The notes under the pieces are model-generated. The model saw only the letters and a program-made list of their open reading frames with translations. It had not been told where the DNA came from and made no database searches. 64,000 bases of DNA from positions 62,001 to 126,000 of the forward strand of contig NZ_JAAVTX010000001.1 in the NCBI RefSeq assembly GCF_012163145.1, read 5' to 3'. The first letter of the stretch is position 1; each line of letters starts with the position of its first letter. Made by a program: the position numbers and the translations under genes. Origin of the DNA: Falsiroseomonas frigidaquae (GTDB lineage: Bacteria > Pseudomonadota > Alphaproteobacteria > Acetobacterales > Acetobacteraceae). Shown here piece after piece: positions 36,935-55,885 of this stretch.

Positions 36935-37059
36935 GTCGGGCAGAATCCGGAAATGGAGCCGGCGCGAGGCCGGCCAGCGGTTAGACCCAGCGATCAACCT
37001 GGCTTGGCAATCTGTGCGAGCAGCCTTTCGGGGGCAGCCTCGTCGGGGCAACTTGTCCT

Positions 37060-39837: not shown

Positions 39838-40250
39838 GGCCTGGCGGCCCCGCCGCCACGCAGCAGGGACCGTGCCTCGACCCAGCCACCCGGAACGGCG
39901 CAGACCAGGCGGGATCGTTCCACCATGCCGGCACCGACCAGCATCTCGCGGCATTCGCGCCCGCTGGCGGCGTAATAGGCGCGCACCAGCCGAACCTGCG
40001 CGGTCTGCCCGTTCGCCAACGTCACCCGATCCACCGCACCGGGCTGCGCCTGGCCCGCCCACACCACCAGCGGGTCGCTCGAGGCCGGGGCGCTGGCCAC
40101 GGGCGTCGCACGACTGCCCAGCCCCTCCGCCCCCAGTCGCGCGCAACCGGTCAAGGCCACCAGCCCCAGCAGCACAACCGTGGCGCGCAGGAGCACAGGG
40201 GCATTGGAGAAGGCAGCCGGCTTGGCCGGCACCTGTGTGCAGTGCATCAT
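39834..40250 (-). CDS. Small lipoprotein of the capsule operon
   Basis: A 138-residue exported protein. The signal peptide (LLRATVVLLGLVALTGC) ends in a lipobox. The mature part has a compact C-terminal domain with YYAASGRECREMLV, then VCAVPGGWVEARSLL: two Cys that can pair. It resembles small DVU3141-like surface lipoproteins found in alphaproteobacterial capsule and exopolysaccharide loci; function is unknown. ATGs at 40250 and 40247 are adjacent. First gene of the kpsM-kpsT-kpsE-kpsD arm, with a 48-base divergent promoter region to the kpsC-type gene. Confidence 0.78.
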   Translation of the reverse strand: MMHCTQVPAKPAAFSNAPVLLRATVVLLGLVALTGCARLGAEGLGSRATPVASAPASSDPLVVWAGQAQPGAVDRVTLANGQTAQVRLVRAYYAASGRECREMLVGAGMVERSRLVCAVPGGWVEARSLLRGGGAARP

Positions 40251-40298: not shown

Positions 40299-42236
40299 AT
40301 GCAGCGACCCATGCAAGGACCCCGGCAAGCACCCCCGCAAGCCGGGGATCACGGCCCCACGCCGGCGGACGCCGCGCTGCCGCCGCTCCGGCTGCCGCCT
40401 GCCGCACTGGCGGCCATCCCTTACCTGCCCGCCTTCTTCCCTGGCCACAGCCTGCTGGCCACGACAGCGGGCGAGGCGCCGACGCTGCAACCAGCCGGGC
40501 CCGACGGCATCCGAAGGGGGAACACCCCTGCGGATCACGCCATGTTGCATTATACAACCGGGCCCTTCCGCTCGCCGCGCCTCGGTGCGCGGCAACTCCC
40601 GCTGCTGCTGGTGATCGCCACCGGACCGGACCCGGTGGCAACTGCGCTGTCCCGCCAGCCGGCAGCACCCGGCCTGGCGCAGGCGCGCCAGGTGATGGCG
40701 GCGATGGCGGCCGGCCGACTCGGCGCCCCACCCGGCCTGCCCCGGCACCACCCCGAGGTCGGTGCTGCCCGCCACATCCTGCTCGACCCCTGCGACCCGG
40801 CCGGGCGGCAGGCCGCGCTGGCCAGGCTGCATGCGCTAAAGGCAGCAGACGAGCCGGTGCTGCTGCTGCGCGACCCCTTCGCGGCTGGCGCCCCCGTGCT
40901 GCCGGGCAGCCTGCCGGCGACCGATCCCTGGTGCCTGCTCGACCTCGGCCTGCCCCTGCACGGCGCCAGCCGCGACCTGGCGCTGCTGGCACTCGCCGCC
41001 GGCGCTGAACTGGCCGATGGCCCCCTGGCCGGCGCCGACGCCGCCACCACCTGGGCCGCCCTGCTCGCCGCCACCCGCGCCGCCGATCCGTTCCGCGGCG
41101 AAGCCTGCAGCATCGAGCAGGGCCTGGACCTGCTCGCCCTGTGGCAGGCGCGGGAGGCAGAGGGGCGCGGCATCGCCGCCTGCCTCGGCATCCACCCCTA
41201 CAAGCGGGAGCGAGTACGCGAACTGCTCGCCTCCGCCGCGCCACCGCCCAGCTTCAGCGGCAATCCGGAACGCGCCGTGGCGCTGGCCGCCCGCCGCGGC
41301 GGCGCCCTGCTCGCCTGGTCCGCCAGCGCGCCCGAGGACCTGCCGGCGCGCTGCGCCGCCGCCGGGGTGGAATTGCGCTGGCTGGAGGATGGCTTCATCC
41401 GCTCCGCCGGCCTTGGCGCCGCCTTCCGCGCCGGCGCCTCCTTCGCCCTGGACCAGTGCGGCCCCTACTACGATCCGGGGCGGGAGAGCGACCTGGCGCG
41501 GCTGCTGGCCACCGCCGAATTCCCGCCCGCCCTGCTCACCCGTGCCCGCGCCCTGCGCCTGGCCGTCGTGGCGCGCGGCGTCACCAAATACAACCTGACC
41601 GGCGCCGTGCCGGAGATCGCAGCACCACCCGGCCGCATCCGCATCCTGGTGCCCGGCCAGGTGGAGGACGACGCCTCCATCCGGCTTGGCGCCGGCCGCG
41701 TGCGCCAGAACCTGCATCTGCTGCGCGCCGTCCGCGCCGCCGCGCCGAAGGCCTTCATCCTGTACAAGCCGCATCCGGACATCGAGGCCGGCTTCCGCCG
41801 CGGCCGCATCGCCGAGGCGGAGCTGGAGGGTCTGGCCGACCAGGTGCTGCGCGGCGTGCCCATGGCGCCGCTGTTCGGGCTGGTGGACGAGGTCCATACC
41901 ATCACCTCCCTCACCGGGTTCGAGGCGCTGCTGCGCGGCCTGCCCGTCACCTGCTGGGGCACGCCCTTCTATGCCGGCTGGGGCCTGACGGAGGATCGCG
42001 GCCCGCCCGCCACCCCGCCCCGCAGCCGCCACCTGACGCTTGACGAACTGGTGGCCGGGGCGCTGATCCTCTATCCGCGCTGCATCGACCCGCTGACCCG
42101 CCTGCCCTGCCCGCCCGAGGTGCTGCTGGACCGTATGGACCGCCCGGACCTGTTCCCCACCGGCCGCCGCGCCCGGCTGCGCGCGCTGCAGGGCTTCCTC
42201 ACGCGCAGCATCGCCCGCCTGCGAGGCTGGCAATGA
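40299..42236 (+). CDS. Capsule polysaccharide biosynthesis protein, KpsC/RkpJ-type Kdo transferase
   Basis: A 645-residue protein. Residues about 290-620 form one KpsC-type module: LGIHPYKRERVRELL, LEDGFIRSAGLGA, YYDPGRESDLARLL, VARGVTKYNL, PGQVEDDASIRLGAG, YKPHPDIEAG, TSLTGFEALLRG and PFYAGWGLTEDRG. KpsC builds the poly-beta-Kdo linker that ties capsule to its lipid. E. coli KpsC has two such modules; here the first 290 residues are only distantly related or unrelated. The start is uncertain (ATG 40299 or 40311; no clear ribosome site). Its stop overlaps the next SDR gene (ATGA). Confidence 0.88.
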   Translation: MQRPMQGPRQAPPQAGDHGPTPADAALPPLRLPPAALAAIPYLPAFFPGHSLLATTAGEAPTLQPAGPDGIRRGNTPADHAMLHYTTGPFRSPRLGARQLPLLLVIATGPDPVATALSRQPAAPGLAQARQVMAAMAAGRLGAPPGLPRHHPEVGAARHILLDPCDPAGRQAALARLHALKAADEPVLLLRDPFAAGAPVLPGSLPATDPWCLLDLGLPLHGASRDLALLALAAGAELADGPLAGADAATTWAALLAATRAADPFRGEACSIEQGLDLLALWQAREAEGRGIAACLGIHPYKRERVRELLASAAPPPSFSGNPERAVALAARRGGALLAWSASAPEDLPARCAAAGVELRWLEDGFIRSAGLGAAFRAGASFALDQCGPYYDPGRESDLARLLATAEFPPALLTRARALRLAVVARGVTKYNLTGAVPEIAAPPGRIRILVPGQVEDDASIRLGAGRVRQNLHLLRAVRAAAPKAFILYKPHPDIEAGFRRGRIAEAELEGLADQVLRGVPMAPLFGLVDEVHTITSLTGFEALLRGLPVTCWGTPFYAGWGLTEDRGPPATPPRSRHLTLDELVAGALILYPRCIDPLTRLPCPPEVLLDRMDRPDLFPTGRRARLRALQGFLTRSIARLRGWQ

Positions 42237-43015
42237 TGGGCGCACCGAACGGCATCGTCATCAGCGGCGCCTCCCGCGGCCTCGGCGCCGCGCTGGCCCG
42301 GCGCTTCGCCGCCCCCGGCACCCGCCTGCTGCTGACCGCGCGCTCCGCCACGGCGCTGGAGGCGGTGGCGCAGGAATGCCGGACCCGCGGCGCCAGCGTC
42401 ACCACCGCCCCGCTCGACATCACCGACGCCGCCGGCATCGCCACGGCGCTGGCCGCCTTCGAGGCCACCGGGCCGGTGGACCTGGTCGTCGCCAATGCCG
42501 GCACCTCCGCCGGCACCGCGCCGGACGGCACGCCCGAAGACACCGCCGCCGCCGCACGACAGGTCGCGGTGAACCTGATCGGCGCCATCAACCTGATCGG
42601 TCCCCTGCTGCCCGGCATGCGGGCGCGCGGCGCCGGGCGGATCGGCCTGATCGCCTCCGTCGCCGGCTTCCGCGGCCTGCCCGACTTTCCCGCCTACTGC
42701 GCCAGCAAGGCAGGGCTGATCGCCTGGGGCCAGGGCCTGCGCGCCGCCGAAGCGCCGCGCGGCCTGCGCGTCACCATCATCACCCCCGGCTTCTTCGAAA
42801 GCGCCATGGGCGAACGCTTCCACGGCCCCCGCCTGTTCCTGCTGACCCAGGACCAGGCCGCCGACCGGGTCCACCAGGCCCTGCAAGCCGGCCACCCCAA
42901 CGCCGCCTTCCCCTGGCCCCTCGCCCTGACCCTGCGCCTGCTCGCCCTGATGCCCCCGCGCCTCGGTGACTGGGCCAGCCGCCGCATGCGGTTCCGGGTG
43001 AGCCCGGAGGGGTAA
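42233..43015 (+). CDS. SDR-family reductase of the capsule locus (RkpH-like)
   Basis: A 260-residue short-chain dehydrogenase: nucleotide loop ISGASRGLGAALA with a following Arg (TARSATAL) that favours NADPH, VANAGTSAG, catalytic IASVAGFRG and YCASKAGL. The C-terminal part with LRLLALMPPRLGDW is hydrophobic, suggesting a membrane-associated lipid substrate, as in 3-ketosphinganine reductases and RkpH. Translationally coupled to the kpsC-type gene. I infer that it reduces the 3-keto group left by the alpha-oxoamine synthase encoded at 45748-47070. Confidence 0.87.
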   Translation: MMGAPNGIVISGASRGLGAALARRFAAPGTRLLLTARSATALEAVAQECRTRGASVTTAPLDITDAAGIATALAAFEATGPVDLVVANAGTSAGTAPDGTPEDTAAAARQVAVNLIGAINLIGPLLPGMRARGAGRIGLIASVAGFRGLPDFPAYCASKAGLIAWGQGLRAAEAPRGLRVTIITPGFFESAMGERFHGPRLFLLTQDQAADRVHQALQAGHPNAAFPWPLALTLRLLALMPPRLGDWASRRMRFRVSPEG

Positions 43016-43029
43016 GGCGCGGGTGGCTT

Positions 43030-43233
43030 GCAGGAGGGGCGCTGCCCCTCCTGCACCTCCCCGCCAGGACCCGGGTCCTGGACCTCGTGATTCGTCAGTG
43101 ATGGTGGCGGAGGGGCCGGTGCGCGCTCCATGCTCGCGGTCGTCCCGGCCCCTCCGCCACCTTCACCCAGGTCCTCGCGGTCCAGGGGCCCGAGGCCCCT
43201 GGTCGGGGGTGCAGGGGGCTGACGCCCCCCTGC
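43030..43233. repeat. Cluster of five palindromes between convergent capsule genes
   Basis: Within about 200 bases there are five inverted repeats: 43030-43054 (11-bp arms, GCT loop), 43064-43081 (CCAGGACCCGGGTCCTGG, perfect), 43103-43119 with 43145-43161 (17-bp perfect arms), 43182-43202 (9-bp arms, CGA loop) and 43211-43233 (imperfect). The block fills the gap between the convergent SDR and kpsS-type genes. It contains no open frame I would support. It could block transcription from both sides; similar GC-palindrome blocks occur between genes in this bacterial group. Confidence 0.8.
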
Positions 43234-43244
43234 CATCACCCGCG

Positions 43245-44564
43245 CTACACCTCGGCGCTGGTCCGTGCCGGCGCCTGCAGGCCCGGGCCGACGCGGTCGG
43301 CGTGGAGGGTCGCGACGATGGCCTGCACGGCCGCGGCGCGGCCTTCGGTGCCGTAGAATACGCCGCGGAGTTGGGTGGTGGCTTGCAGGGCGGCCAGGAA
43401 GGCGTCGCGCAGCGACAGGTCGGGCAGTTCCGCCTCGGCCCAGAAGCGGTCGAGCGGCCCCTGGTGCGCCAGGCCCGGCACGTTCCACACCGCCTCGCCC
43501 AGCGCCTTGGCCGGGCGGCCGAGGGCCAGGGCGCGCAGCCCCACGGTGCTGTTGATGGTGATCAGGCCGCGCCCGCGCAGCAGCATGGCGTCCAGCGGCC
43601 CGTGATGCGCCACATGGACGCGGCCCTGCACTCCGGCGCGGCGCGCCATGGCGTTCACCCGGCGACCCCAGCGTTTCACGCAGGGGTCCAGCGGGTGCAC
43701 CTTCACCAGAAGCTGCGCCTCGGGTGGGGCCATGCGGGCAAAGCTGTCGAGCACCTCCGCGATCGGCGTGTCGAGGTCGGGGTAGGGCGAATAGGCGCGG
43801 ACGGAGAAATCCGTCTCCATCTGCATGGCGAACAGCCAGAACGGCGCGCTGCCGATCGCCTCCAGCGCGCGCAGCCCTTCCGCATGCTCCGCGCGGCGCC
43901 GCAGCAGGCGCCGGGCGATGCCGAGATAGGTGTAGATCGGGTGGTGCAGCTGGTGGCTGACGTAGCGCGGGAACGGCCAGGGGGCGAGGTTGGCCAGGTG
44001 GTAGGCCACGTCCCATTGTGCCTGCAGGCGAAAATCGTCGCGATAGCGCTCCGTCAGGTCGGCCGGCGGCAGGCCCTGGGCGAGGGCCTGGATGGCGCCC
44101 GGGTCGCGCGGGAAATGACTGTCCCCACCCATGCCGTCGCGTTCCAGGGTCACCCAATCCGGGCGGAAATAGCCGAAATCGGTCACGGCCACGGTCACGC
44201 CGCGCCGATGCGCGGCGGCGATGGCGGCACGGTGGTAGGCGCGCTGTTCGCCGAGCAGCAGGATATCCGTGATGCCATGCTTATCGAGGTAGTCGGCGAT
44301 GAACTCCGGCCAGGCGGTCTGCGTCCCCTGGTAGTCCACCGCCGGGCGCACGCCCGGCATCTGGCGCCAGAACAGGCGGTCGCCCAGCGACAGGTTGATG
44401 CGGTGCACGACATGGCCGAGCTGCGCGAGCCCGGCCGCGACCTCGAAGAAGACCGGGCTGATCGGCCCCTGAAGGAACAGGAAGTGCCGAGGGCCGGTCC
44501 GGGGCCGGGCCTGAGTTTCCCCGGTCCGGTCCGGCGGAGATGCGTGCGAAGGATGGGGCGGCAT
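43245..44564 (-). CDS. Capsule polysaccharide biosynthesis protein, KpsS-type
   Basis: A 439-residue protein of the capsule_synth (KpsS/LipB) family, which adds the first Kdo to the lipid acceptor in group 2 capsules. Marks are FLFLQGPISPVFFEVAAGL, RINLSLGDRLFW, VTDFGYFRPDWVTLE, LVKVHPLDP and ITINSTVGLRALALGRP. I chose ATG 44564; the frame upstream is antisense or out of phase with the GNAT gene. It is the last gene of the arm that begins with the glycosyltransferase and PKS, 71 bases after the GNAT gene. Confidence 0.88.
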   Translation of the reverse strand: MPPHPSHASPPDRTGETQARPRTGPRHFLFLQGPISPVFFEVAAGLAQLGHVVHRINLSLGDRLFWRQMPGVRPAVDYQGTQTAWPEFIADYLDKHGITDILLLGEQRAYHRAAIAAAHRRGVTVAVTDFGYFRPDWVTLERDGMGGDSHFPRDPGAIQALAQGLPPADLTERYRDDFRLQAQWDVAYHLANLAPWPFPRYVSHQLHHPIYTYLGIARRLLRRRAEHAEGLRALEAIGSAPFWLFAMQMETDFSVRAYSPYPDLDTPIAEVLDSFARMAPPEAQLLVKVHPLDPCVKRWGRRVNAMARRAGVQGRVHVAHHGPLDAMLLRGRGLITINSTVGLRALALGRPAKALGEAVWNVPGLAHQGPLDRFWAEAELPDLSLRDAFLAALQATTQLRGVFYGTEGRAAAVQAIVATLHADRVGPGLQAPARTSAEV

Positions 44565-44635
44565 GTGCACCCCATAGCCATCACCGGTGCCGAAACTGTC
44601 AATGCCGGGAAGTACCTGGTCGGTTTCGCGAGGTT

Positions 44636-45751
44636 TCACACAACCGTGCCCCGCCACAGCCGCCAGCGCCCGCTGACCGGCGCGGGCAGCCGCGCCATGG
44701 CATTCCGCATTGCCGCGTTGCCCTCCAGGATCCAGGAGATTTCCAGCCTTTGCCAACCGCGCCGTGCGGCGAGGCCGATCGCCTCCCGCAGCAGGGCGCC
44801 CATGGCGAGCGCGCTGGCCGGGTGCCCCCGGAAGGCCTGTGTGATGCCGAGCATGGGCACCCGCGCGGAGGCCACGCGCCCGGCCAGCACGCCCACCAGC
44901 CGCAGCCAGCCGAACGGCAGCAGGCGGCCATTGGCGGGCATCGCCGCGGCCAGGTTCGGCACCACGGCGACCAGCCCGACCGGCGTACGGTCCCAATCGG
45001 CGAAGACGACCTCGCCGGACCACAACAGCGGGCGCAGCAGCTTGCCGAGGCTTTCCACCTCCGCCGGGCGCAGCGGCACGGCGCCCCAATTGGCGCCCCA
45101 GGCATCGTTGTAGAGCGCGGCGATGCGGCGGACCTCGCCGGCGAAGTCGCGCCGGTCCATCACCCGCAGGCGCAGCCGCGCCATATCCGCCGGGCGTTTC
45201 AGCGCCAGCGCGGCGAACCGCGCCGAGTGGCGCTCGGCCGGCACATCCAGCGTGCAGGCCAGTACGTCCTGCACCGGCAGCAGGCCAGCGGCATCCAGCA
45301 TGGCGGGCAGCCATCCGGGCGTGCCCGGCATGCGGAGCATCGGCGGCCGGTCATGGAAGCCGATCTGCGCGCCGACCTCATGGTTGATGGTGAAGGACAA
45401 CGGGCCGGTCATCTCCGCCCGGCCCTGTGCGCGGATGAAGTCACGCGCCGCACCCAGCAGCGCCGCCACCACCGCCGGGTCCTGCTCGGTGCAGAGGAAG
45501 CCGAAGCTGGCGGGTGCGGTGGCATCATGCGGCACGCAGGCGGCGATGCGCCCGACCGGGTTGCCATCGCGCCAGGCCAGGAAGCGGGCCACGTGATGAT
45601 CCGCCAGGAAGTGAAAAAAGCCCGGATCGAACATCCGCGCCTCCTCCCACCGCAGCGGCACGGACCAGCCGAGGTGGCGCAGCCGTGCCGGCAGGGCGTG
45701 GAAGGCGCGTGCTTCCGCGGCGGTGGCGACAAGGCTGGCGTGCAGGCTCAC
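44636..45751 (-). CDS. GNAT-superfamily N-acyltransferase, YghO-type
   Basis: A 371-residue protein related to E. coli YghO: PARLRHLGWSVPLRW, DPGFFHFLADHHVARFLAW, RIAACVPHDAT then FGFLCTEQDPAVVAALLGAA, GPLSFTINHEVGAQIGFHD and PPMLRMPGTPGWLPAMLDAAG. Two GNAT-like halves are apparent. A GNAT-superfamily enzyme serves as ceramide synthase in Caulobacter; whether this protein is its functional equivalent is inference from position. It starts with GTG 45751, overlapping the alpha-oxoamine synthase stop (GTGA), so the two are made together. Confidence 0.82.
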   Translation of the reverse strand: MSLHASLVATAAEARAFHALPARLRHLGWSVPLRWEEARMFDPGFFHFLADHHVARFLAWRDGNPVGRIAACVPHDATAPASFGFLCTEQDPAVVAALLGAARDFIRAQGRAEMTGPLSFTINHEVGAQIGFHDRPPMLRMPGTPGWLPAMLDAAGLLPVQDVLACTLDVPAERHSARFAALALKRPADMARLRLRVMDRRDFAGEVRRIAALYNDAWGANWGAVPLRPAEVESLGKLLRPLLWSGEVVFADWDRTPVGLVAVVPNLAAAMPANGRLLPFGWLRLVGVLAGRVASARVPMLGITQAFRGHPASALAMGALLREAIGLAARRGWQRLEISWILEGNAAMRNAMARLPAPVSGRWRLWRGTVV

Positions 45752-47070
45752 CCGGCGAGGTCGGCCGGCGCCACGCCGTCCGTCGCGGCCACCAGCGCCG
45801 CCACGGCATCCCGTACGTCCTGTTCGGAATGCTCGGCCGAGAGGAAGAAGCGCAGCCGTGCCAGCTTCTCCGGCACCGCCGGGAAGACGATGGGCAGCGC
45901 GTTGACGCCATGGTCCAGCAGCGCCGCCGAGACGCGGATGGCGCGCACGGAGCTGCCGAGCACCACGGGAACGATGCCCAGCCCCTCCGAATTTCCGGTG
46001 TCGAAGCCGCGCGACCGGCACAGGTCGCGGAACAGCGTGGCGTTGGCCTGCAGCTTGGTCACCCGCCAGGGTTCCGCCGCCATCACGTCCATCGCCGCGG
46101 CGGCGGAAGCCGCCAGCGGCGGCGACAGGCCGACGGAATAGACGAAGCCCGGCACGGTGTGGCGCATCCAGTCGATCAGGTCGCCGCGCGCCGCGATGTA
46201 GCCGCCGGCGGCACAGAGCGTCTTGGACAGGGTGCCCATCCAGATATCGACCTCGGCGGGATCGACCCCGGCGGCCTCGAACACCCCCTTGCCGGTGGCG
46301 CCGACGCAGCCCAGGCCATGCGCGTCATCCACCATCAGCCAGGCGTCGTGCTTGCGGGCGATGCGGACCAGCGCGGCCAGGTCCGGCACGTCGCCATCCA
46401 TGGAATAATGCCCCTCGACCAGCAGCAGCGCCCGCCCGGCGCTGCGCCGCACGCTGGCCATCTCGCGCTCCGCCGCGCGGGTGTCGTTATGGGCGAAGGA
46501 CACGCGCCGGGCGCCGGACAGCTTGGCCCCCTCGACGCAGGAATTGTGAATGGCGGCGTCGTGCACGATGACATCGCGCGGCCCCATCAGATGGCCGATG
46601 ACCGTCACATTCGTCGCATGCCCGCTGACGAAGGCGAGCGCCGCCTGCTGGCCGTAATGCGCCGCCAGCCGCCGCTCCAGCTCCCCATGCACCGGCCTTT
46701 CGCCGGAGACGAGGCGCGAGGCGCTGGCGGAGATGCCGTAGCGCGCCATGGCGTCCGCCGCCGCCTTGTGCAGGCGCGGGTCGCCGTTCAGCCCGAGATA
46801 GTCGTAGGAGCCGAAATTGATGGTGTCGCGGTTGCCGATCAGGCTGTGCGCCCCGGCCCTTCCCTCATGCGCGCGGAAGAACGGGCTTTCGATGGACAGC
46901 GCGCCCATCGCCTCCTGCATCAGGCCGAAATCGCGCAGCCCCTGGATGGCCCCGAAGCCCTTCTGGTCCGAGGCGGCCTGCGCCTCCTGCCCCTCGCGCC
47001 GCCGCGCAAGGCGTTGGACCAGCGCAAGCCGCGCGGCGTTGGAAAGGCCGAATCCCTGACCGCGACTCAT
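45748..47070 (-). CDS. Alpha-oxoamine synthase (serine palmitoyltransferase/RkpG-like)
   Basis: A 440-residue PLP enzyme that condenses an acyl thioester with an amino acid, losing CO2. It has a 60-residue N-terminal extension, INFGSYDYLGLNGDPRL, ASRLVSGERPVHGELE, HDAAIHNSCVEGA, VEGHYSMDGD, VDDAHGLG (PLP-ring Asp at about 248-249) and GTLSKTLCAAGGY with the Schiff-base Lys at about 283. BioF, KBL and SPT share this fold. The genome position behind a PKS without thioesterase suggests an acyl-ACP donor and chain release by condensation. The amino acid (Ser, Ala or Gly) is not readable. Confidence 0.9.
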   Translation of the reverse strand: MSRGQGFGLSNAARLALVQRLARRREGQEAQAASDQKGFGAIQGLRDFGLMQEAMGALSIESPFFRAHEGRAGAHSLIGNRDTINFGSYDYLGLNGDPRLHKAAADAMARYGISASASRLVSGERPVHGELERRLAAHYGQQAALAFVSGHATNVTVIGHLMGPRDVIVHDAAIHNSCVEGAKLSGARRVSFAHNDTRAAEREMASVRRSAGRALLLVEGHYSMDGDVPDLAALVRIARKHDAWLMVDDAHGLGCVGATGKGVFEAAGVDPAEVDIWMGTLSKTLCAAGGYIAARGDLIDWMRHTVPGFVYSVGLSPPLAASAAAAMDVMAAEPWRVTKLQANATLFRDLCRSRGFDTGNSEGLGIVPVVLGSSVRAIRVSAALLDHGVNALPIVFPAVPEKLARLRFFLSAEHSEQDVRDAVAALVAATDGVAPADLAG

Positions 47071-47105
47071 GCTCTGGTGCTGATCCTTAGCTGTCCCGCC
47101 GGCCG

Positions 47106-50100
47106 CTATTCGGCCGCACGTACCGCCCCGGCGCTCGGTTCGAAGGATTCCATCAAGGTGGAGATGGTGACCTCATCGCCCGGCGGCGCCAGCGCCGCAT
47201 CCGCGATCTGCCGTGCCAAGGCCCCCACCGTCAACTCCTCCGTGAGCGCGGCGAGCGCCACCTGCACCCCGAGGCGCTGTTCCAGCCCGCCGCGCAACTC
47301 CAGCGCGCCGAGGCTGTCGAGGCCGAGGCCGGTCACTGCCGCATCCGCCGCCACCGCCTCGGCCGGCAGCCGCAGGATGCGGGCGATCTCCTCCGTCACC
47401 AGGCGCAGGATCAGCGCCTCCGCCTCCGGCCGCGGCAGGGTGGGCAGGCGGGCGCGCAGGTCGTCCGAGGCCGCGGGAGCCTCCGCGCCGGCCAGCGCCG
47501 CCAGCATCGGCTCCGCCATGATCGGCAAGGCCAAGCGGCCTTCCCCGTTGGACAGCCGCACCAGCAGCGGCGCGGCATCGGCGGCGGCCAGCAGCGCCGG
47601 CAGGGCGGCGAGGGATTCCGCGGCGGTCATGCCGGTGACGCCGAGCCGGCGGTTCAGCTTCTCGGCCTTCTCCCGGTCATCGGCCAGCATGCCGACATCG
47701 GCGATCGGCCCCCAGCCGATGGCCAGCGCCGGCCGGCCGGCGGCGCGGCGGCGGCGGGCCAGCGCCTCCAGCGCCGCGTTGGCGGCGACGTAGTTGGCCT
47801 GGCCGGGATTGCCGAAGGTGGTGGTGGCGGAGCTGAACAGCAGGAAAAGCGTGAGCGGATCGCCCGCCGTCAGCCGGTCCAGATTCTCCGCCGCCCGCAG
47901 CTTCGGCGCCAGCACCCGGCGGAAGCGGGCCGTATCCATCGCCGTGGCGGCGCCGTCATCCAGCACCGCGGCGCAATGCACCACGCCGCCGATCGGCCGT
48001 GCCGCGCGGATTTTCGTCAGTGTCGCCCCAAGCGCCTCGGCATCCGCCGCATCGCACAGATGCAGGGCGGGACGGGCGCCGAGTGCCGAAAGCTCACGCA
48101 AGGCGGAAGCCGCTTCCTCGCCGCCGCTGCGGCCGATCAGCGCGAGGTGCTTCGCCCCCTGCCCGACCAGCCAGCGCGCGGTGGCGAGGCCGAAGCCGCG
48201 GGTGCCGCCGACGACGATCAGGGTCTGGTCGGCCGGCGGCGCCCAGGGGGCCGCCAGCGCCGGACGCTCCGCGGGCGGGCGGATCACCAGCTTGCCGATA
48301 TGGGCGGAGGCCTGCAGCGTGCGGAAGGCGGCCTCCACCTCCTCCGGCCCGAACAGCGCATGCGGCAGCGGCCGCAGCGAACCATCCTGCAGCCGGTCAC
48401 GCACCTGGCCGAGCAGGCGGGAGGCCTGGCCCGGGCGGGCGCGCGGCAACTCGTCCACATCCACCGCGAAGTAGCTGGCATTGCGGCGCAGCGGGCGGAT
48501 CGGCGCGCGGCGGTTCTCCACATAGTCCCGCTTGCCGAGCTCGACGAAGCGCCCGAACGGCTTCACCAGGCCCAGCGAGCGTTCCATCGCCTCCCCGGCC
48601 AGGGAGTTCAGCACCACGTCCACACCCTCCGGCCAGGCGGCGCGCAGCGCGTCGGCGAAGCCGGGGTCGCGGCTGTCCAGCACCAGCTCGGCGCCGGCGG
48701 CGCGCAGGAAGGCGCGCTTGGCGGCGCTGCCCGCGGTCATCGCGATGCGCGCGCCGATCGCCTGCGCCACCTGCAGCGCAGCGAGGCCCACCGCGCCGGC
48801 GCCACCATGGATCAGTACCGTCTCGCTGGCCTGCAAGTCGGCACAGGTCTCCAGCGCATGCAGCGCGGTCATGAAGGCGACCGGGATGGTCGCCGCCTGC
48901 ACCGGGTCCAGCCCCTCCGGCAGCGGCGCGATCGCCTCCACCCGGGTGATCACCCGCGCGGCGAGGGCGCCGGGGGCGAAGCCGAAGACGCGGGTGCCGG
49001 GGCGCAGCGCGACGCCCGGCCCGGCCTGTTCGACGATGCCGGCGCATTCCATGCCGAGCGTCGGCCCGGCGAAGCCTGCCTCCAGCACTTCCTCCGGCAG
49101 CAGCCCCTGCGCCCACATCAGGTCGCGGAAATTCAGGCCGGCGGCCTCGACGCGCAGCGCCACCTCCCCGGGTCCGGGGGCGCGGACCTCGGCAGGCTCC
49201 CAGCGCAGCGTGCCGAGCCGGCCCGGCTGGCCGATGCCGAGCGCCAGCGGCCCGCCGGGTGCCGGCGTCGTCAGGCCGCGTTGCAGGCGGGGCACCAGCC
49301 GTGCATCCGGGCCGAGCACCACCTCCGCCTCCGGCACCAGCTGGGCCAGTTCGGCGGCCAGGCGCCGCGCCGCGGCCTCCGGCGCCAGGCCGGGCGCCAG
49401 GTCGATGCGCCGCGGCCGCAGCGCCGGCATCTCATTCGTCAGCACCCGCGCCAGGCCCAGCAGGGCGGCGGCCTGCGGCACATGGCAGCCCTCCGGCGGC
49501 TGCAGCCCGCCCTGGGTCACCAGCACGAAGCCGCCGGCAACGCCAACGGCGGCTTCCGCCAGGCGGGTGACGGTGGCCAGCGTCGCGGCCAGCGCCGGCT
49601 CCTCCGGTGCCGCCAGCACCAGCAGGCGCACGCCGCGCAGGCTGCCGGCGGCGGGCATCTCGTCCAGCGTCGCCTGCTCCACCTCCGCCCCGCGGCGCCG
49701 CAGCCGCGCGGCCAGGGCATCGGCCAGCGGCGCCGATTCGGCATCCGCCAGCAGCAGGCTGCGCGGCGGCGCCGGGAGGGCGGCGGCGGAGGGTGGCGGC
49801 TGTTCGGCGGCCAGCAGCAGGGCCGGCCAGGGCGCACAGGAAAGCGGTTCGGCCACGGTGGCGCGGAAGCCGCCCTCCGCCAGACGGCCGAGCCACAACG
49901 CCGCATCCGGCAGCGCGCCGCCGGCCGAGCCACCTGCCGCATCCGGCCCGAGACCGGTCCACCAGGCCGGGTCCTGGCCGCAGACGAAGGTCCAGACGCG
50001 GCCCGGCAGGGGTTCCACCAGCAGCAGCGCGCCGCCTTCCGCCAGCGCCGGGCGCAGGGCGGCGGCGAGCGTGGTGCCCGCCTTGGCGCGGGCGGCCGGC

Positions 50101-53100
50101 GCCAGCCCGATGACGAGGTCAGCCACCAGCGGTGGCGGTGCATCCCCGAGGGGGTCCCAGACGACGCCGCGGATCTCGCTGCCCGCCGGCATGCCTTCCG
50201 GCAGTTCGGGCAGCGGCACCCGCCCCTCGCCGGCCGCGATATAGACCAGCGCGCGGCCCATCGGCGCCAGGCGCGCCAGCACGCGGCGCGCCAGCACGCC
50301 ACCGGCGGCGCCCACTTCCAGGATCCGCAGCGGCCGGGTTTCGGGCCAGGAGGCGGCGAGCGCGCCGACCGCGGCGGCCAGTGCCTCCGCCAATCGTGCC
50401 ATGCCCTCCCCCTGTGCCGGCGGCGGCGCCGGGTCGCGGGTGCGACCGCGCAACGCATCCGGCAGGCGTTCCGCGGCTTCGGCGATCCAGGCGAGGTCCA
50501 GCGCCAGCGCCGGCTGCTCCGCCAGCACCGATCGCCAGATCTCCGCGGCGTCCGGCAGCGCGTTGTCGGGCAGCAGGCGGATGCCGCCAGGCGTGCCCTT
50601 CTGCACCGGCTCCGCCGCGCCATCCTCGACCAGCGCGCGGCGCAGGAAGGCCTCGTAGGCCGAGGCCTCGGGGGCGGCTTCATGCAGGGAAGGCTCGGCG
50701 GCGTAGAGGCGCTGCGCGGCGGCGGCGACATGCGCCTCCAGCAGCAGGGTTGCCTCGGTCAGGTCCAGCGCTGCGGCGGCGGCGCGGGCGGCTTCCAGGG
50801 CGGGCGCGAGCGCCGGGGCGGGCGGCGCACCTTCGGCGGCCGGTGCCAGGCCGATGCGGTAGGCGGCATCCTCCGCATTCGCGGCGCCAGGCAGGGCGAA
50901 GCGCTGGAACACCGCATCCTCGATGCGGGCGACGATGCTGCCCACCGCATCGCGCAACACCATCCGCGCGGTGGCGGAGCGTGCGCCGCGGCGGGTCAGC
51001 GTGATCTCGGCACTCACCGCCGGCGCGGCGCCGGCCAGCGCCACCAGCCGGCCGAAGCGCACCGGCACCAGGCCTGTGCCAGGCGGCGGCGGCGATTCGG
51101 CCAGCAGCGCGAACAGCCCCTGCATGGCGCCATCCAGGCGGGAGGGGTGCAGCAGATAGCCGGCATCCGGCGGCGCCGATTCGGGCAGCGACAGCCGCAC
51201 CCGCACCTGCCCCGGAACCTGGGTCGGCGCCACGCTGTCCACCGCCGCGAAGGCCGGGCCATAGGTCAGGCCGAGCCGCGCCGCGATGCCGCGCAGGGCC
51301 GCGCCATCCAGCGCCGCCGGGCTGCCGCCCAGGCTGCCAAGGGGGGGGCCGGGTGGCAAGGCGGGCGGGGCCAGCGCCGCGGCCGTGGCGGCGCGCAGCT
51401 CGCCTTCCGCATGCAGCGCCCAGGCTTCCTCCGACAGACGGCGGCGGCCCTCGATGCGGAACAGGCCGGTGGCGGCATCCAGCGTGCAGCGCAATTCCCG
51501 CGCCCGTCCGTGTTCGAGCTGCACGGCGCGCAGGATGCGGAATTCCCCCACCTCCAGCGCCGCGGCGTCGGGGAAACGGGTGCGGGCGGCGGCCAGCGCC
51601 ATGTCGAGCATGCCCGAGGCCGGCAGCACCGCATCCGGGCCCAGCCGGTGGTCGGCCAGCCAGGGCATCAACTCCGTGTCCAGCGACACGGTCCAGACCG
51701 CCGCCTCCGCGCCCCGGCGGAAGCCGAGCAGCGGGTGGTCCTGCACCGGATCCACCAGCCGGCTCGCCTCCACCGTCTCCGGCTGCCAGACCGGCTTGCG
51801 GTCGAAGGGGGTCAGCGGCAGGCGGGTGGTGCCAATATCTGCGAAGGTCGGGCCGGCGAAGGCCGGGCCGCCGCGTGGATCAGCGCCGGCGGCAAAGGCG
51901 CGGTCGGCAATGGCGGGGAACGGGTCCGCGCCCTCGACATCCCGCTTGCTGAGGCTGACCAGGTTCGCCGCTTCCACCCCGGCCGCTCGCGCGGTCTCGC
52001 GCAGATAGGACTGCAGCACCGGGTTGGGGCCGATCTCGAGGAACAGCCGGGCGCCGCGGGCGATGGCGGTGCGCAGCGCAGGCTCGAACTTCACCGGCTG
52101 GCGCAGGTTGCGCCACCAGTACAGGGGACCCACCGCATCGCCCGCCAGCATCTCGCCGGTCACGGTCGAGACCATCGGCAGCTGGCCGGGCTGGCCGGCG
52201 AGCCCGATCAGTTCCTCCAGCAGCCCATCGCGCACCGCATCCATGGCGGCGCTGTGGAAGGCGTAGTCCAGGTCCAGCGGTACATAGGCGAAGCGCCGCG
52301 CCTCCGCCGCCTGCCGCAGTACGGCGAGGTCGGCCTCCGGCCCGGCCAGCGTCACCGCGGCGGGGCCGTTCAGCGCGCCGATCTCGACACGGGATTCCAG
52401 CCCGGCGGCGGCGATCAGCGCCGTGGCATCGGCCGCGGTGGCGCCCAGCGCCGCCATGCGGCCCTGGCCACGGGTGCGGTGCTGCTGGCGCGACCTTGCG
52501 ACCACCAGCCGTGCGGCGGCCGGCAGGTCCAGCAGGCCGGCGGCATGGGCCGCGGCCACTTCGCCCACCGAATGGCCGAGCACGAGGTCCGGCCGCAGCC
52601 CCTCCGCCGCCAGCGCCTGCAGGCTGGCCACCTGGATGGCGAACAGCAGCGGCTGGGCGATGTCGGTCGCGGCCAGCTGCTCCGCCGTCACGCCCGTCTC
52701 GACCATGGCGCGGGGCGACCAGCCGAGCAGCGGCGCCAGCGCGGCATCCGCCTGCGCCATGCCGGCGCGGAACGGGGCAGAGGTGGCGAGCGCCAGGCGA
52801 CCCATGCCGGCGAATTGCGCGCCATTGCCACTGAACACGAAGCACAGCCCGCCGGATGCTGCGGCGACGCCGGACACCGCCCTCGGCGCGCCACGGCGCC
52901 AATCGGCCAGTTGCGCGGCCAACGTCGGGCCATCCTCGCCTCGCAGCACCAGGCGATGCGGGTGCAGGTCGCGGTGCCGGGCGGCGCCACGGGCCAGCGC
53001 CGCGGCCTCCGCCGGCTCGGCCGCGACCAGCCGCGCCTCCCAATTCGCGGCCAGCGCGGACAGCGCGGCGGCGGAACGCGCCGAGAGCAGCAGCGGCGGC

Positions 53101-54452
53101 GGCGGGCCGGCCTTCGCGGCCCGCGCGAGACGCTTCGGCGCAGGCGCCGGGCCGAGCAGGACGGAGGCATTGGTGCCGCCGAAGCCGAAGGAATTCACCC
53201 CCACCACCGGCTGCGCGATATCCGCCAGCGGCTCCAGCGCCGCCGGGACGCGGATGTTCAGCCCGGCGAAGTCGATGTTCGGATTGGGCTCGCCCTGGTG
53301 CAGCGTGGCCGGCACCTGCCGCCGTTCCAGCACCAGCATCGCCTTGGCCAGCCCGGCAACGCCGGAGGCCGGCTCCAGATGCCCGATATTGGACTTGATG
53401 GACCCCACCGGCAGCGGCGCATCGCGGCCCGCAGCGGCCTGGCCGATCGCCCAGGCCTCGGCCGGGTCGCCCGCCTGGGTGCCGGTGCCATGCGCTTCCC
53501 AATAGGCCAGGCGATCGGCGGTGACGCCGGCATCCTGCATCACCTGGCGGATCAGCTTGGCCTGCGAATCGCGGTTCGGCAGCGACAGGCCGATGCTGCG
53601 GCCCACCGCGCTGACGCCGCTCGCCAGGATCACGCCACGTATCGAATCGCCGGCCGCCAGCGCGGCATCCAGCGGCTTCAGCAGGAAGGCCGCCGAACCC
53701 TCCGCCCGCACATAGCCATCCGCCCCCGCCGTGAAGGCGCGGCAGCGCCCGGTGGGGGACAGCATGCCGGCGCGGGAGAAGCCGACGAAGGGGAACGGCG
53801 AGAGCAGCATCTGCACCCCCGCCACCACCGCCGCTTCCAGACGACCCTCCGCCAGCGCCTGGCAGGCCGCGTGCAGCGCGACGAGGGAGGAGGCGCAGGC
53901 GGTGTCGATGGTCTCGGCCGGGCCGCGCAGGTCGAAGACATTGGTCAGCCGGTTGGACAGGATCGACAGCGCATTGCCGGTCATGAAGTACCGGTCGCCA
54001 CCCGCGTGATCCAGGAGGCGCAGATCGCCGTAGTCGGTGGAGGAACCGCCGACGAAGACGCCGACATCGCGCCCCGCCAGGGCGGAGGGCCGCACCCCGG
54101 CATCCTCCATCGCCGCCAGCGTCACCTCCAGCAGCAGGCGCTGCTGCGGGTCCATCTCCGCGGCCTCACGCGGTGAGATGCCGAAGGCGCCGGCATCGAA
54201 GCCGCGCACATCGCCCAGCGCTCCGGCGGCGAAGGTATAGGCGCGCCCCGGCTCGCTGCGGCGCGGATGCAGGAAGGCGGCCTGGTTGAAGCGGTCCGCC
54301 GGCAGGGTGGAGACGGCATCGCGGCCGGATTCCAGCAGGGACCACAGCGCTTCGGCATCGGCGGCCCCGGGCAACCGGCAGCCCATGCCGAGGATGGCGA
54401 TGGGCATTGCGGCACGCTGCTGGGCCACCCGGGGAGGACGGGTGGATTTCAT
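47106..54452 (-). CDS. Type I reducing polyketide synthase (KS-AT-DH-[MT-like]-ER-KR-ACP), RkpA-like
   Basis: A 2448-residue megasynthase. KS: DTACASS (Cys 186), EAHGTGT (His 321), KSNIGHLE (His 358). AT: GHSVG (Ser 628) and YAFHS (730-734), which points to malonyl-CoA. DH: HRLGPDAVLP (His 935) and DGAMQ (Asp 1107). About 1220-1550: a methyltransferase-like fold with only EVGAAGG left of the SAM motif. ER: GGAGAVGLAALQVA (about 1883-1896). KR: GGTRGFG (2082-2088) and QANYVAAN (Tyr 2221). ACP: GLDSL (Ser 2380). All reductive domains look active, so a saturated chain is expected. There is no thioesterase. AAAGGGG precedes ATG 54452. Confidence 0.93.
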   Translation of the reverse strand: MKSTRPPRVAQQRAAMPIAILGMGCRLPGAADAEALWSLLESGRDAVSTLPADRFNQAAFLHPRRSEPGRAYTFAAGALGDVRGFDAGAFGISPREAAEMDPQQRLLLEVTLAAMEDAGVRPSALAGRDVGVFVGGSSTDYGDLRLLDHAGGDRYFMTGNALSILSNRLTNVFDLRGPAETIDTACASSLVALHAACQALAEGRLEAAVVAGVQMLLSPFPFVGFSRAGMLSPTGRCRAFTAGADGYVRAEGSAAFLLKPLDAALAAGDSIRGVILASGVSAVGRSIGLSLPNRDSQAKLIRQVMQDAGVTADRLAYWEAHGTGTQAGDPAEAWAIGQAAAGRDAPLPVGSIKSNIGHLEPASGVAGLAKAMLVLERRQVPATLHQGEPNPNIDFAGLNIRVPAALEPLADIAQPVVGVNSFGFGGTNASVLLGPAPAPKRLARAAKAGPPPPLLLSARSAAALSALAANWEARLVAAEPAEAAALARGAARHRDLHPHRLVLRGEDGPTLAAQLADWRRGAPRAVSGVAAASGGLCFVFSGNGAQFAGMGRLALATSAPFRAGMAQADAALAPLLGWSPRAMVETGVTAEQLAATDIAQPLLFAIQVASLQALAAEGLRPDLVLGHSVGEVAAAHAAGLLDLPAAARLVVARSRQQHRTRGQGRMAALGATAADATALIAAAGLESRVEIGALNGPAAVTLAGPEADLAVLRQAAEARRFAYVPLDLDYAFHSAAMDAVRDGLLEELIGLAGQPGQLPMVSTVTGEMLAGDAVGPLYWWRNLRQPVKFEPALRTAIARGARLFLEIGPNPVLQSYLRETARAAGVEAANLVSLSKRDVEGADPFPAIADRAFAAGADPRGGPAFAGPTFADIGTTRLPLTPFDRKPVWQPETVEASRLVDPVQDHPLLGFRRGAEAAVWTVSLDTELMPWLADHRLGPDAVLPASGMLDMALAAARTRFPDAAALEVGEFRILRAVQLEHGRARELRCTLDAATGLFRIEGRRRLSEEAWALHAEGELRAATAAALAPPALPPGPPLGSLGGSPAALDGAALRGIAARLGLTYGPAFAAVDSVAPTQVPGQVRVRLSLPESAPPDAGYLLHPSRLDGAMQGLFALLAESPPPPGTGLVPVRFGRLVALAGAAPAVSAEITLTRRGARSATARMVLRDAVGSIVARIEDAVFQRFALPGAANAEDAAYRIGLAPAAEGAPPAPALAPALEAARAAAAALDLTEATLLLEAHVAAAAQRLYAAEPSLHEAAPEASAYEAFLRRALVEDGAAEPVQKGTPGGIRLLPDNALPDAAEIWRSVLAEQPALALDLAWIAEAAERLPDALRGRTRDPAPPPAQGEGMARLAEALAAAVGALAASWPETRPLRILEVGAAGGVLARRVLARLAPMGRALVYIAAGEGRVPLPELPEGMPAGSEIRGVVWDPLGDAPPPLVADLVIGLAPAARAKAGTTLAAALRPALAEGGALLLVEPLPGRVWTFVCGQDPAWWTGLGPDAAGGSAGGALPDAALWLGRLAEGGFRATVAEPLSCAPWPALLLAAEQPPPSAAALPAPPRSLLLADAESAPLADALAARLRRRGAEVEQATLDEMPAAGSLRGVRLLVLAAPEEPALAATLATVTRLAEAAVGVAGGFVLVTQGGLQPPEGCHVPQAAALLGLARVLTNEMPALRPRRIDLAPGLAPEAAARRLAAELAQLVPEAEVVLGPDARLVPRLQRGLTTPAPGGPLALGIGQPGRLGTLRWEPAEVRAPGPGEVALRVEAAGLNFRDLMWAQGLLPEEVLEAGFAGPTLGMECAGIVEQAGPGVALRPGTRVFGFAPGALAARVITRVEAIAPLPEGLDPVQAATIPVAFMTALHALETCADLQASETVLIHGGAGAVGLAALQVAQAIGARIAMTAGSAAKRAFLRAAGAELVLDSRDPGFADALRAAWPEGVDVVLNSLAGEAMERSLGLVKPFGRFVELGKRDYVENRRAPIRPLRRNASYFAVDVDELPRARPGQASRLLGQVRDRLQDGSLRPLPHALFGPEEVEAAFRTLQASAHIGKLVIRPPAERPALAAPWAPPADQTLIVVGGTRGFGLATARWLVGQGAKHLALIGRSGGEEAASALRELSALGARPALHLCDAADAEALGATLTKIRAARPIGGVVHCAAVLDDGAATAMDTARFRRVLAPKLRAAENLDRLTAGDPLTLFLLFSSATTTFGNPGQANYVAANAALEALARRRRAAGRPALAIGWGPIADVGMLADDREKAEKLNRRLGVTGMTAAESLAALPALLAAADAAPLLVRLSNGEGRLALPIMAEPMLAALAGAEAPAASDDLRARLPTLPRPEAEALILRLVTEEIARILRLPAEAVAADAAVTGLGLDSLGALELRGGLEQRLGVQVALAALTEELTVGALARQIADAALAPPGDEVTISTLMESFEPSAGAVRAAE

Positions 54453-54491
54453 GACAAGGCCCCTTTCAGGGTCGGCCTGCGCGGGCGGCGG

Positions 54492-55787
54492 TCACGGCAA
54501 CCCCTCGTCGCGCCGAACGGCGCCGGGCAGCGGCATGGACCAGTCGCGGTCGCGCTCAGGCAGGCTGGCGGGCTGGTCGGGGCGAGGCGCCGTCCGGTCG
54601 GACGGACGCTTCACCAGGTCGCGGAAAAGCTGTTCCACCGCGACGAAGTGGTTCTCCCAGCTCGGCGGCTTCCAGCCTGCCATGCGGCCCATCTGGGCGC
54701 GGCGGCTGCCGCTGTCCGGGCGGGCGTAGTCCAGCACGGCACTGCGCCAGGACATGCCATCCAGCGGATCCAGGTAGTCCGGCACCTGGCGGCCCACCTC
54801 GCGCAGCGCCGGCAGGTCGGATGCCAGGGCCGGCACGCCGAGCGCCAGGCTTTCCGCCAGCGGCAGGCCGAAGCCCTCGGCGAAGGAGGGGAACAGCAGG
54901 GCGCGCGCGCCGCGCAGCAGGGACGCCACTTCCCGGTCGGGCAGCGAGCCGGATTCCCGCACCAGGCCATCCAGCGCGGAACACCGCTCCAGCATGTCCA
55001 GCACGTTCTCATTCTCCCAGCCGCGGCGGCCGACCACCACCAGGCGCGGCGCGGCGCCGCCCATGGTGCTGGCGAACTGGCGCCAGAGGTTCAGCAGCAG
55101 CAGGTGGTTCTTGCGCGGCTCGATGGTGCCCAGCGCCACGAAATAGGGCCGAAGCGCCACCGGCGGCGCCTCCACCGCCGGCGGCGTCACGCCGAGCGGC
55201 GCGACGGCGACCAGCGGGCGGTCCGGCCGCGCCGCCAGCCAGGGCGAGAGCTCGGCTGCCGTCGCCGCGGAATTGACGATGATGGCATCCGCCAGCGCCG
55301 CCGTCGTGATGATGCGGCGCTTGTGCTTCTCGGCCTGTCCGGCGCGGGCGAATTCCGGGTGGTGCAGCGGGATCAGGTCGTGGATCAGCGGCACGAAATG
55401 GCAGCCGTTGCGCCGCATGCTGGAAATCCGCGCGGGCCGTTCCAGGGCCCGGTGCGAGACCAGCAGGAAGCATTTGTCACCGGGGCGGCGCAGCGCCTCG
55501 TTCAGCGCGGGCCGGCCGAAGGGCAGCGCCAGCCGGGCGCGGCGCGCGGTGCCGGCAGCCAGCCGCGTGCCGCTTTCCCAGGATTCCTCCAGCGCCACCA
55601 CCAGCTCCCGCACCAGGGAGGTGGGCAGCGCCGCGAATCCGAGCAGCGGAACCTCCGCCACGAAGGTGCAATGGGCGGGGTCGTTCGTCGCCCAGTGGCG
55701 GGCATAGGCAAGCTCGACCCGGTCGATCCCCGACGGCGCCGAGCGGTGGGCAACCATGAGGAGACGGGAGATGTCGAGAAAGACATG
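54492..55787 (-). CDS. Glycosyltransferase family 4, first gene of the PKS operon
   Basis: A 431-residue GT-B glycosyltransferase: SGIDRVELAYARHWA, VPLIHDLIPLHHPEFA, AIIVNSAATAAEL, ALGTIEPRKNHLLLLNLW and PSFAEGFGLPLAESLALG with the E-x7-E site. It starts with GTG 55787, with GAGGAG eleven bases upstream. It lies 39 bases before the PKS gene and likely shares its transcript. A possible role is the first sugar added to the PKS-derived lipid or a step of the capsule repeat unit; the donor is unknown. Confidence 0.87.
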   Translation of the reverse strand, partial: HVFLDISRLLMVAHRSAPSGIDRVELAYARHWATNDPAHCTFVAEVPLLGFAALPTSLVRELVVALEESWESGTRLAAGTARRARLALPFGRPALNEALRRPGDKCFLLVSHRALERPARISSMRRNGCHFVPLIHDLIPLHHPEFARAGQAEKHKRRIITTAALADAIIVNSAATAAELSPWLAARPDRPLVAVAPLGVTPPAVEAPPVALRPYFVALGTIEPRKNHLLLLNLWRQFASTMGGAAPRLVVVGRRGWENENVLDMLERCSALDGLVRESGSLPDREVASLLRGARALLFPSFAEGFGLPLAESLALGVPALASDLPALREVGRQVPDYLDPLDGMSWRSAVLDYARPDSGSRRAQMGRMAGWKPPSWENHFVAVEQLFRDLVKRPSDRTAPRPDQPASLPERDRDWSMPLPGAVRRDEGLP

Positions 55788-55885
55788 CACGCCTAGCAAT
55801 CTCCTCGGAGCATGGGGACCCGCCGAAGCTGCGGGACCACCCAGGGGGGGTGCAGCACCGACCAAACCTCATGGTGCACCGCAAT

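Follow-up and report, generated by a model that had tools for sequence, protein, structure and literature searches.

What lipid is made by the polyketide synthase (PKS) and alpha-oxoamine synthase (AOS) that accompany capsule genes of the rkp-1/wcb type is, to our knowledge, a question that has stood open since the 1990s, and it is raised anew by a locus of Falsiroseomonas frigidaquae in which these enzymes are joined by a putative N-acyltransferase. The locus lies in a 64,000-nucleotide stretch of contig NZ_JAAVTX010000001.1 (positions 62,001 to 126,000; hereafter the window), where capsule and lipid genes fill window positions 35141-55790 in two parts. Part A is a single tight operon on the minus strand in the order GT4-type glycosyltransferase, PKS, AOS, GNAT and KpsS; part B is a plus-strand pair (40299-43015) of KpsC and a short-chain dehydrogenase/reductase (SDR) that adjoins minus-strand KpsM, KpsT, KpsE and KpsD genes, and the two parts converge. 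By its named relatives in a genome scan, the window belongs to the Falsiroseomonas/Roseomonas group of Acetobacteraceae. The reading we favour, to which we give a probability of roughly 55%, is that the locus specifies a polyketide-derived, N-capped sphingoid-like lipid that would be the acceptor or carrier for a capsule primed with Kdo (3-deoxy-D-manno-oct-2-ulosonic acid) and exported by an ABC transporter.

The clue to the nature of this lipid comes from relatives in which the GNAT is missing. Among 16 genomes of the same genus (genomes are labelled G and loci L; L129, L130, L131 and L132 are the same contigs as L013, L018, L021 and L020 and are counted once), only G009 and G011 keep the PKS and AOS and have no GNAT, and in both the gene directly upstream of KpsS encodes a formyltransferase (PF00551, E 5.9e-21 and 7.3e-21). 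In G011 (L226) it occupies the slot between AOS and KpsS; in G009 (L222) it precedes KpsS elsewhere on the contig than the PKS-AOS pair. An apparent GNAT match in G009 is an overlap with the end of the AOS, and GNAT residues beyond this overlap find nothing significant in L023 or L226. Two other PKS-AOS loci, with no GNAT in the stretch read, carry the gene as well, L099 in the order KpsS, SDR, formyltransferase and L113 beside SDR and KpsC. Asn128, His130 and Asp166, which we take to be the expected catalytic residues of a formyltransferase, are invariant in all four sequences (L222, L226, L099, L113). The closest solved relatives are ArnA, the methionyl-tRNA enzyme Fmt, the sugar N-formyltransferases VioF and WlaRD, and PurN, enzymes that mostly formylate an amine.

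A wider search covered 43 genomes, in all of which except G005, G006 and G008 a PKS-AOS pair was read. Strong formyltransferase matches (at least 366 bits) occurred in seven, namely G009, G011 and five genomes of one other family (f58: G253, G437, G420, G426 and G500), all PKS-AOS genomes; judged by match coordinates, the gene lies within about 1.1 kb of KpsS in six of the seven and beside SDR and KpsC in G437. The next best match anywhere scored 117 bits (G250), and weak matches (60-117 bits) in further genomes were left uncounted, three of them in the GNAT genomes G010, G148 and G384 (61-73 bits). None of the 21 genomes with a capsule-type GNAT has a strong formyltransferase, a lack of overlap whose chance is about 0.005 over the 43 genomes and 1 in 120 within the genus, kinship ignored. 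The check for a GNAT extended to about 9 kb around the AOS, or to as much of this as the contig contained, in G420, G426, G437, G500, G494, G496, G344, G404, G531 and G545, and among the seven formyltransferase genomes its absence is genome-wide for G253, G009 and G011 only. In one even sample of 289 Alphaproteobacteria genomes (the class sample, in which searches for GNAT, AOS and formyltransferase scored, in each genome, the 5 to 9 candidates that ranked best at first look, so that absences are incomplete), a single genome, itself with PKS-AOS, has a strong formyltransferase.

Judged by sequence, then, the GNAT and the formyltransferase replace each other, two unrelated enzymes that would each cap an amine. 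Because two such enzymes swap, the pattern suggests that the AOS makes a free-amine lipid that is N-acylated or N-formylated afterwards, and the exchange beside AOS and KpsS fits an AOS-made amine better than any other single reading found.

The GNAT has no match in Pfam or NCBIfam, and its earlier description as YghO-type is borne out by 32% identity to YghO of E. coli BL21 over a 380-column alignment and by a predicted tandem GNAT fold, which places it in the GNAT superfamily. YghO (bCerS) is a ceramide N-acyltransferase according to passages of PMC9386255 and PMC11087976. In the GNAT tree the PKS-linked proteins (19 of 70 rows, L139 of G574 included) stand on one side of a branch with support 100/100 and YghO on the other, so placed that the PKS-linked GNATs appear as one lineage within the YghO family, separate from those of ceramide type. 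Both kinds coexist in G148, which carries a second, ceramide-type GNAT with its own AOS of the serine palmitoyltransferase (SPT) type elsewhere (L072). Two further loci, L123 (9197-14335) and L125 (9308-13481), combine an AOS and a YghO-type GNAT with a fatty-acid desaturase and a fatty-acid hydroxylase, with no PKS beside the AOS; the L123 desaturase also matches the sphingolipid Delta4-desaturase model PF08557, and both look suited to making ceramides that are desaturated and hydroxylated, on Pfam evidence for L123 and on similarity to L123 for L125.

These affinities bear on a quite unlikely alternative, in which the substrate of the GNAT and of the formyltransferase is an amino sugar, in the capsule or in its linker, while the PKS-AOS lipid remains a free amine. 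Many relatives of the formyltransferase are indeed sugar N-formyltransferases (ArnA, VioF, WlaRD), and the top fold matches of the tandem GNAT include glucosamine N-acetyltransferases. Yet the GNAT is homologous over its full length to the ceramide-pathway YghO, and it stands between AOS and KpsS, its GTG start and the stop codon of the AOS sharing bases (GTGA); among the block's genes, Pfam recognised none for amino-sugar synthesis.

The AOS belongs to a group of its own. Forty PKS-coupled AOS, that of the window included, form one clade (support 100/98), distinct from a group made up of the SPT of E. coli BL21 and 27 AOS from other GNAT loci, and distinct also from BioF and from the host genome's own other AOS, its one other match (36%). 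The assignment of the AOS as a true SPT was rejected, since the tree puts it outside the ceramide SPT clade. The first-pass annotation had proposed that the locus re-creates ceramide logic with a PKS as acyl source, and this stands in part: the enzyme set fits condensation, reduction and N-acylation and is tied to KpsS, KpsC and export genes, but its AOS is not of the SPT clade. It is a trait of rkp-1/wcb-type systems, found here too, that a monomodular reducing PKS with no thioesterase immediately adjoins an AOS of the PKS-coupled clade. Among distant relatives outside the main clade, AOS and PKS adjoin in L124 and L128, and in L128 an AOS profile and a KS match share one 1937-aa frame, which suggests a fusion.

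The PKS has the domain order KS-AT-DH-(degenerate MT)-ER-KR-ACP, with no Pfam match to a thioesterase, and carries the motifs DTACASS, HGTGT and KSNIGH, GHSVGE with YAFH, and GLDSL, which we assign to KS, AT and ACP respectively. The degenerate methyltransferase-like stretch between DH and ER has no Pfam match in the window PKS, L016, L117 or L121; it is matched in L061 (E 7.4e-10) and weakly in L099 and L134. In the pathway that we propose, the PKS would use its own ACP to assemble an acyl chain, long and mostly reduced, which would stay there because there is no thioesterase, until the AOS freed it by decarboxylative condensation with an amino acid to give a 3-keto amino lipid. Serine would be the simplest candidate for this amino acid and would leave the lipid with a primary hydroxyl. 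The KpsC-coupled SDR would then reduce the ketone, and as a classical SDR coupled to KpsC it more likely works in the cytoplasm; the GNAT would acylate the amine to yield a ceramide-like lipid, for which the formyltransferase of some relatives would substitute N-formylation. KpsS would add the first Kdo to this lipid, the single-module KpsC would extend it, the GT4 may add a sugar, and the capsule would be assembled on the lipid and exported via KpsMTED.

That these lipid enzymes belong to the capsule is indicated by the company they keep. In the 12 loci read from the same genus (the window and L013-L023), PKS-AOS is present in all, GT4 in 11 (the L013 contig ends within the PKS), and GNAT and KpsS follow the AOS in 11, neither being there in L023 (G009); the GNAT was found in 14 of the 16 genomes, G005 and G006 being partial. 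Farther away, in Roseomonas, Pseudoroseomonas and Siccirubricoccus (L133, L134, L136, L137 and L138), part A is kept and part B does not adjoin it. The GT4 keeps its position upstream of the PKS in relatives, and since the order GT4-PKS-AOS-GNAT-KpsS recurs down to 50-57% GNAT identity, the gene set is not a chance assembly. KpsS comes directly after the GNAT in all 16 Roseomonas-group PKS-AOS loci with a full GNAT (the window, L013-L022, L133, L134 and L136-L138). From 11 genomes whose loci are split or distant, 12 KpsC regions were fetched. The SDR adjoins KpsC or KpsS in 10 of these 12 (the misses being L214 and L221), and KpsMTED genes lie beside nine; an SDR in one system with KpsS/KpsC relatives is likewise a trait of the rkp-1/wcb type. 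Where loci are split, then, the SDR stays linked to KpsC and the lipid genes to KpsS, and no other observation made here argues as strongly that the lipid enzymes belong with the capsule.

Both presumed Kdo transferases are conserved in their motifs, KpsS keeping QMETD and VHP and the KpsC-type protein QVEDD and KPHPD, of the QXXXD and HP types described for the family in PMC10148158. A sequence search for solved relatives of KpsS gave none at E <= 0.1. The KpsC-type gene named earlier does match KpsC and is coupled to the SDR (the two overlap by 4 bases), but a single module is recognisable (residues 332-600), the N-terminal half having no QXXXD and no recognisable Kdo-transferase motif. KpsS and KpsC are the only PF05159 genes in the host genome. 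Short one-module KpsC frames also occur in G178 and G080.

In the class sample, a YghO-type GNAT was found in 45 genomes, a full-length KpsS-like protein (at least 150 bits) in 17 and a PKS-coupled AOS in 12, these last being defined by an AOS in the PKS-coupled clade and a PKS in the fetched stretch; AOS hits in G297, G135 and G033, outside that clade and with no PKS within about 9 kb, were dropped. As to co-occurrence, KpsS is present in 7/12 PKS-AOS genomes against 10/277 others (Fisher p 4e-7, uncorrected for kinship); the association is limited by five of the 12 (G250, G247, G292, G223 and G173) that have no PF05159 (KpsC/KpsS) match. A GNAT stands beside the AOS in two, the window genome and G148, with a third case, L116 (G384), in the phylum sample. 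No YghO-type GNAT was found at E <= 1e-3 in five of the 12 (G253, G247, G292, G048 and G173) among the top candidates searched. A place for the GNAT in the general rkp-1 pathway was ruled out by its position beside the AOS in only those two genomes. In line with an extension of the rkp-1 model, most of the rkp-type loci seen carry no GNAT next to the AOS. The GNAT is dispensable within the genus (G009, G011), so that N-acylation would be one variant and not the core. In a survey of named genomes, the best 80 GNAT loci included nine with PKS, AOS, GNAT and KpsS together, one short fragment with GNAT and KpsS (L135), and 70 in which nothing of PKS size was matched (a single weak domain match apiece in L190 and L193); some 40 of these 70 resemble ceramide loci, with an AOS in the stretch that was fetched.

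A very unlikely explanation, on which this distribution bears directly, is that PKS, AOS and GNAT make a free membrane lipid or a secondary metabolite with no part in the capsule, and that the capsule genes are merely nearby. The five PKS-AOS genomes with no KpsC/KpsS match speak for it, as do the varied extra genes at PKS-AOS loci (PhyH, LpxC, CDP-alcohol phosphatidyltransferase) and the unidentified aminolipid and glycolipid with which Falsiroseomonas is described in passages of PMC8414978; this aminolipid is compatible with a capsule lipid too, and could be an ornithine lipid. Against it stand the GNAT-KpsS and KpsC-SDR neighbours conserved across split loci, the association of KpsS with PKS-AOS at the genome level, and the capsule-deficient phenotype ascribed to rkp-1 mutants in the review PMC4881576.

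Several points weigh against a capsule acceptor or carrier that is an N-capped polyketide lipid. In 15 of the 43 genomes the searches found no capsule-type GNAT and no strong formyltransferase, which means that the amine is not capped everywhere or that another factor caps it; the extra genes beside the AOS in some such loci reveal no common replacement. Both capping enzymes could act on a sugar amine. The AOS lies outside the ceramide SPT clade, so that serine is no more than a candidate for its amino acid; moreover, the partners of the GNAT clade are not united in the AOS tree, so the GNAT was lost often or moved. The five PKS-AOS genomes with no KpsC/KpsS match count here as well, and in L116 no KpsS lies within about 9 kb of PKS-AOS-GNAT, the gene being on a different contig, while in G574 the GNAT is far from PKS-AOS. 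The locus is known from its genes, from which we infer all the chemistry of lipid and capsule, and the lipid might be a final anchor, a transient carrier or a regulator. The Kdo polymer of Sinorhizobium meliloti 1021 is a further point: rkp-1 is needed for its secretion according to the review PMC4881576, in whose reference list the polymer is titled as having a phospholipidic anchor, the only report of an anchor that we came across for an rkp-1-dependent polymer. If the PKS lipid is not the anchor in strain 1021, it may not be the anchor here either.

The rival that follows, which we consider unlikely while ranking it first among the alternatives, is that the PKS-AOS-SDR lipid is a transient carrier or assembly factor for capsule synthesis or export, the exported chain ending in ordinary (lyso)phosphatidylglycerol. 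It agrees with the strain 1021 anchor, with the statement in the same review that rkp-1 products make and modify a specific lipid carrier for secretion, and with the canonical motifs of KpsS and KpsC. It accounts less well for KpsS within the lipid operon in 16 Roseomonas-group loci with a full GNAT, and the (lyso)phosphatidylglycerol that E. coli uses (PMC10148158, in part) is a membrane lipid, for which dedicated genes should be superfluous.

Returning to the N-capped polyketide lipid, a more specific version can be offered tentatively, at somewhat less than even odds: PKS-AOS-SDR may be a capsule lipid platform whose evolution was separate from that of SPT-type sphingolipid synthesis; unrelated enzymes would stand in for one another in capping its amine (the GNAT giving a polyketide ceramide, the formyltransferase an N-formyl sphingoid), and the capped lipid, not phosphatidylglycerol, would be primed with Kdo by KpsS. 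If so, capsule lipid anchors would be a variable, enzyme-swapped trait, as the sugars are. The swap turns the question of what the PKS and AOS make into a sharp and testable one: the product should bear a free amine, to which one species adds an acyl group and another species of that genus a formyl group. Should the lipid prove to be the anchor, the assumption of phosphatidylglycerol under Kdo-primed capsules would need revision, and bacterial ceramide-like lipids would have a second origin, via a PKS. The idea of a lipid carrier for PKS-AOS with KpsS/KpsC and SDR is already known from the rkp-1/wcb layout. In titles and the beginnings of abstracts, no paper was found that links rkp/wcb PKS or KpsC/KpsS capsule genes with ceramide, sphinganine or SPT, and as far as the literature searches reach, the GNAT variant, its separate lineage and the formyltransferase replacement are undescribed.

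All the genes named in the first-pass annotation were found where it had placed them, and the GT4 was added as the operon's first gene (Table 1). Gaps within part A are at most about 40 bases, except for about 70 bases ahead of KpsS. Of the export set, KpsT, KpsE and KpsD were recognised by family and KpsM by conservation only.

Table 1. Genes of the capsule and lipid block (window positions) and formyltransferases of related capsule loci (positions within each locus).
Feature	Position	Strand	Basis or remark
GT4-type glycosyltransferase	54492..55790	-	operon's first gene, GTG start 55790; Glycos_transf_1 E 2.8e-14
Reducing PKS, monomodular iterative-type, 2448 aa	47106..54452	-	Pfam domains
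AOS, RkpG-like, 440 aa	45748..47070	-	Aminotran_1_2 E 1.5e-46; TIGR00858 bioF 339 bits, under cut-off
YghO/bCerS-type tandem GNAT, 371 aa	44636..45751	-	GTG start; YghO alignment and predicted fold
KpsS-type beta-Kdo transferase	43245..44564	-	Capsule_synth E 3e-71; NF050054 KpsS 158 bits, under cut-off
KpsC-type protein, one recognisable beta-Kdo transferase module (C-terminal half)	40299..42236	+	PDB 6mgd KpsC E 6.9e-56, residues 332-597
SDR, RkpH-like, translationally coupled to KpsC	42233..43015	+	adh_short E 7.5e-40
KpsM-type ABC transporter permease, start uncertain	about 38986..39840	-	reading frame, membrane-like sequence, conserved beside KpsT in relatives
KpsT-type ABC transporter ATPase	38336..38986	-	ABC_tran E 1.6e-15
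KpsE/BexC/CtrB-type inner-membrane export protein	37147..38373	-	TIGR01010 248 bits, E 1.5e-73, under curated cut-off
KpsD-type polysaccharide export protein, Poly_export and SLBB	35141..37051	-	Poly_export E 1.4e-14, SLBB_2 E 4.3e-11
Formyltransferase, capsule loci	L222:7154-7921, L226:7548-8339, L099:1375-2154, L113:11289-12086	all -	PF00551 family

The block is flanked by housekeeping genes such as RNase E/G (57165-61199) and exonuclease VII (15900-17366). No relative was found among the viral contigs searched, and Rfam gave no match; the count of promoter-like sites was 0, and there were 5 terminator-like sites where shuffled sequence gave 3.9. A small uncalled minus-strand frame with, by eye, a lipoprotein-like start lies upstream of KpsM (about 39840-40250), and at 19501-23275 (minus strand) a GT4 with TPR repeats adjoins a ManC-type mannose-1-phosphate guanylyltransferase, possibly another polysaccharide gene pair. 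Near PKS-AOS in other loci that have no GNAT we noted a PhyH dioxygenase (L106:10739-11653), an LpxC homologue between PKS and AOS (L118:8185-9180) and a CDP-alcohol phosphatidyltransferase (L100:12358-13059), and in G009 a DAG-kinase-type lipid kinase side by side with a metallophosphatase (L023:1776-3656), some 4 to 6 kb from PKS-AOS.

Four known systems invite comparison. In the rhizobial rkp-1 system RkpG is AOS-like, RkpH is an SDR and RkpJ is KpsS/KpsC-like. The likeness is one of layout, the loci compared here being those of the Roseomonas group and other genomes: a monomodular PKS (RkpA/WcbR) occurs with capsule synthesis and export genes, as stated in portions of PMC3908369, PMC4881576 and PMC7902896, and RkpI is annotated in a table of PMC9952627 as a capsule biosynthesis/export transmembrane protein. 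The window locus differs in its extra YghO-type GNAT between AOS and KpsS, in having KpsS in the lipid operon, and in an SDR coupled to a single-module KpsC. With the bacterial ceramide pathway of Caulobacter and E. coli BL21 (spt, bcerS (aca, yghO) and cerR (epi)) it shares an AOS-fold condensing enzyme and a YghO-type N-acyltransferase; the window AOS, however, lies outside the SPT clade, its GNAT is of a separate lineage, its reductase is a classical SDR where CerR is epimerase-type, and the acyl source would be a PKS-borne ACP and not AcpR/AasR, for which the block's scanned genes gave no match, no genome-wide search having been made. For Caulobacter, N-acylation before reduction by a periplasmic reductase is proposed in PMC11087976, others proposing the eukaryotic order. 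The fungal fumonisin (FUM1-FUM8-FUM13) and AAL toxin (ALT) clusters share with the window a PKS, AOS condensation with an amino acid and SDR reduction of the 3-ketone, a likeness of enzyme classes with no homology claimed; excerpts of PMC7711896 report FUM1 (PKS), FUM8 (AOS, condensing with alanine) and FUM13 (3-ketoreduction) as a route to a sphinganine analogue, whereas the window is a capsule locus with Kdo transferases and an N-capping enzyme. Finally, the E. coli group 2 capsule (KpsS, KpsC, KpsMTED) has the same ABC export set and Kdo transferases that bear QXXXD and HP motifs, and the window locus departs from it in carrying dedicated lipid genes and a KpsC with one recognisable module, where that of E. 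coli has two according to passages of PMC10148158.

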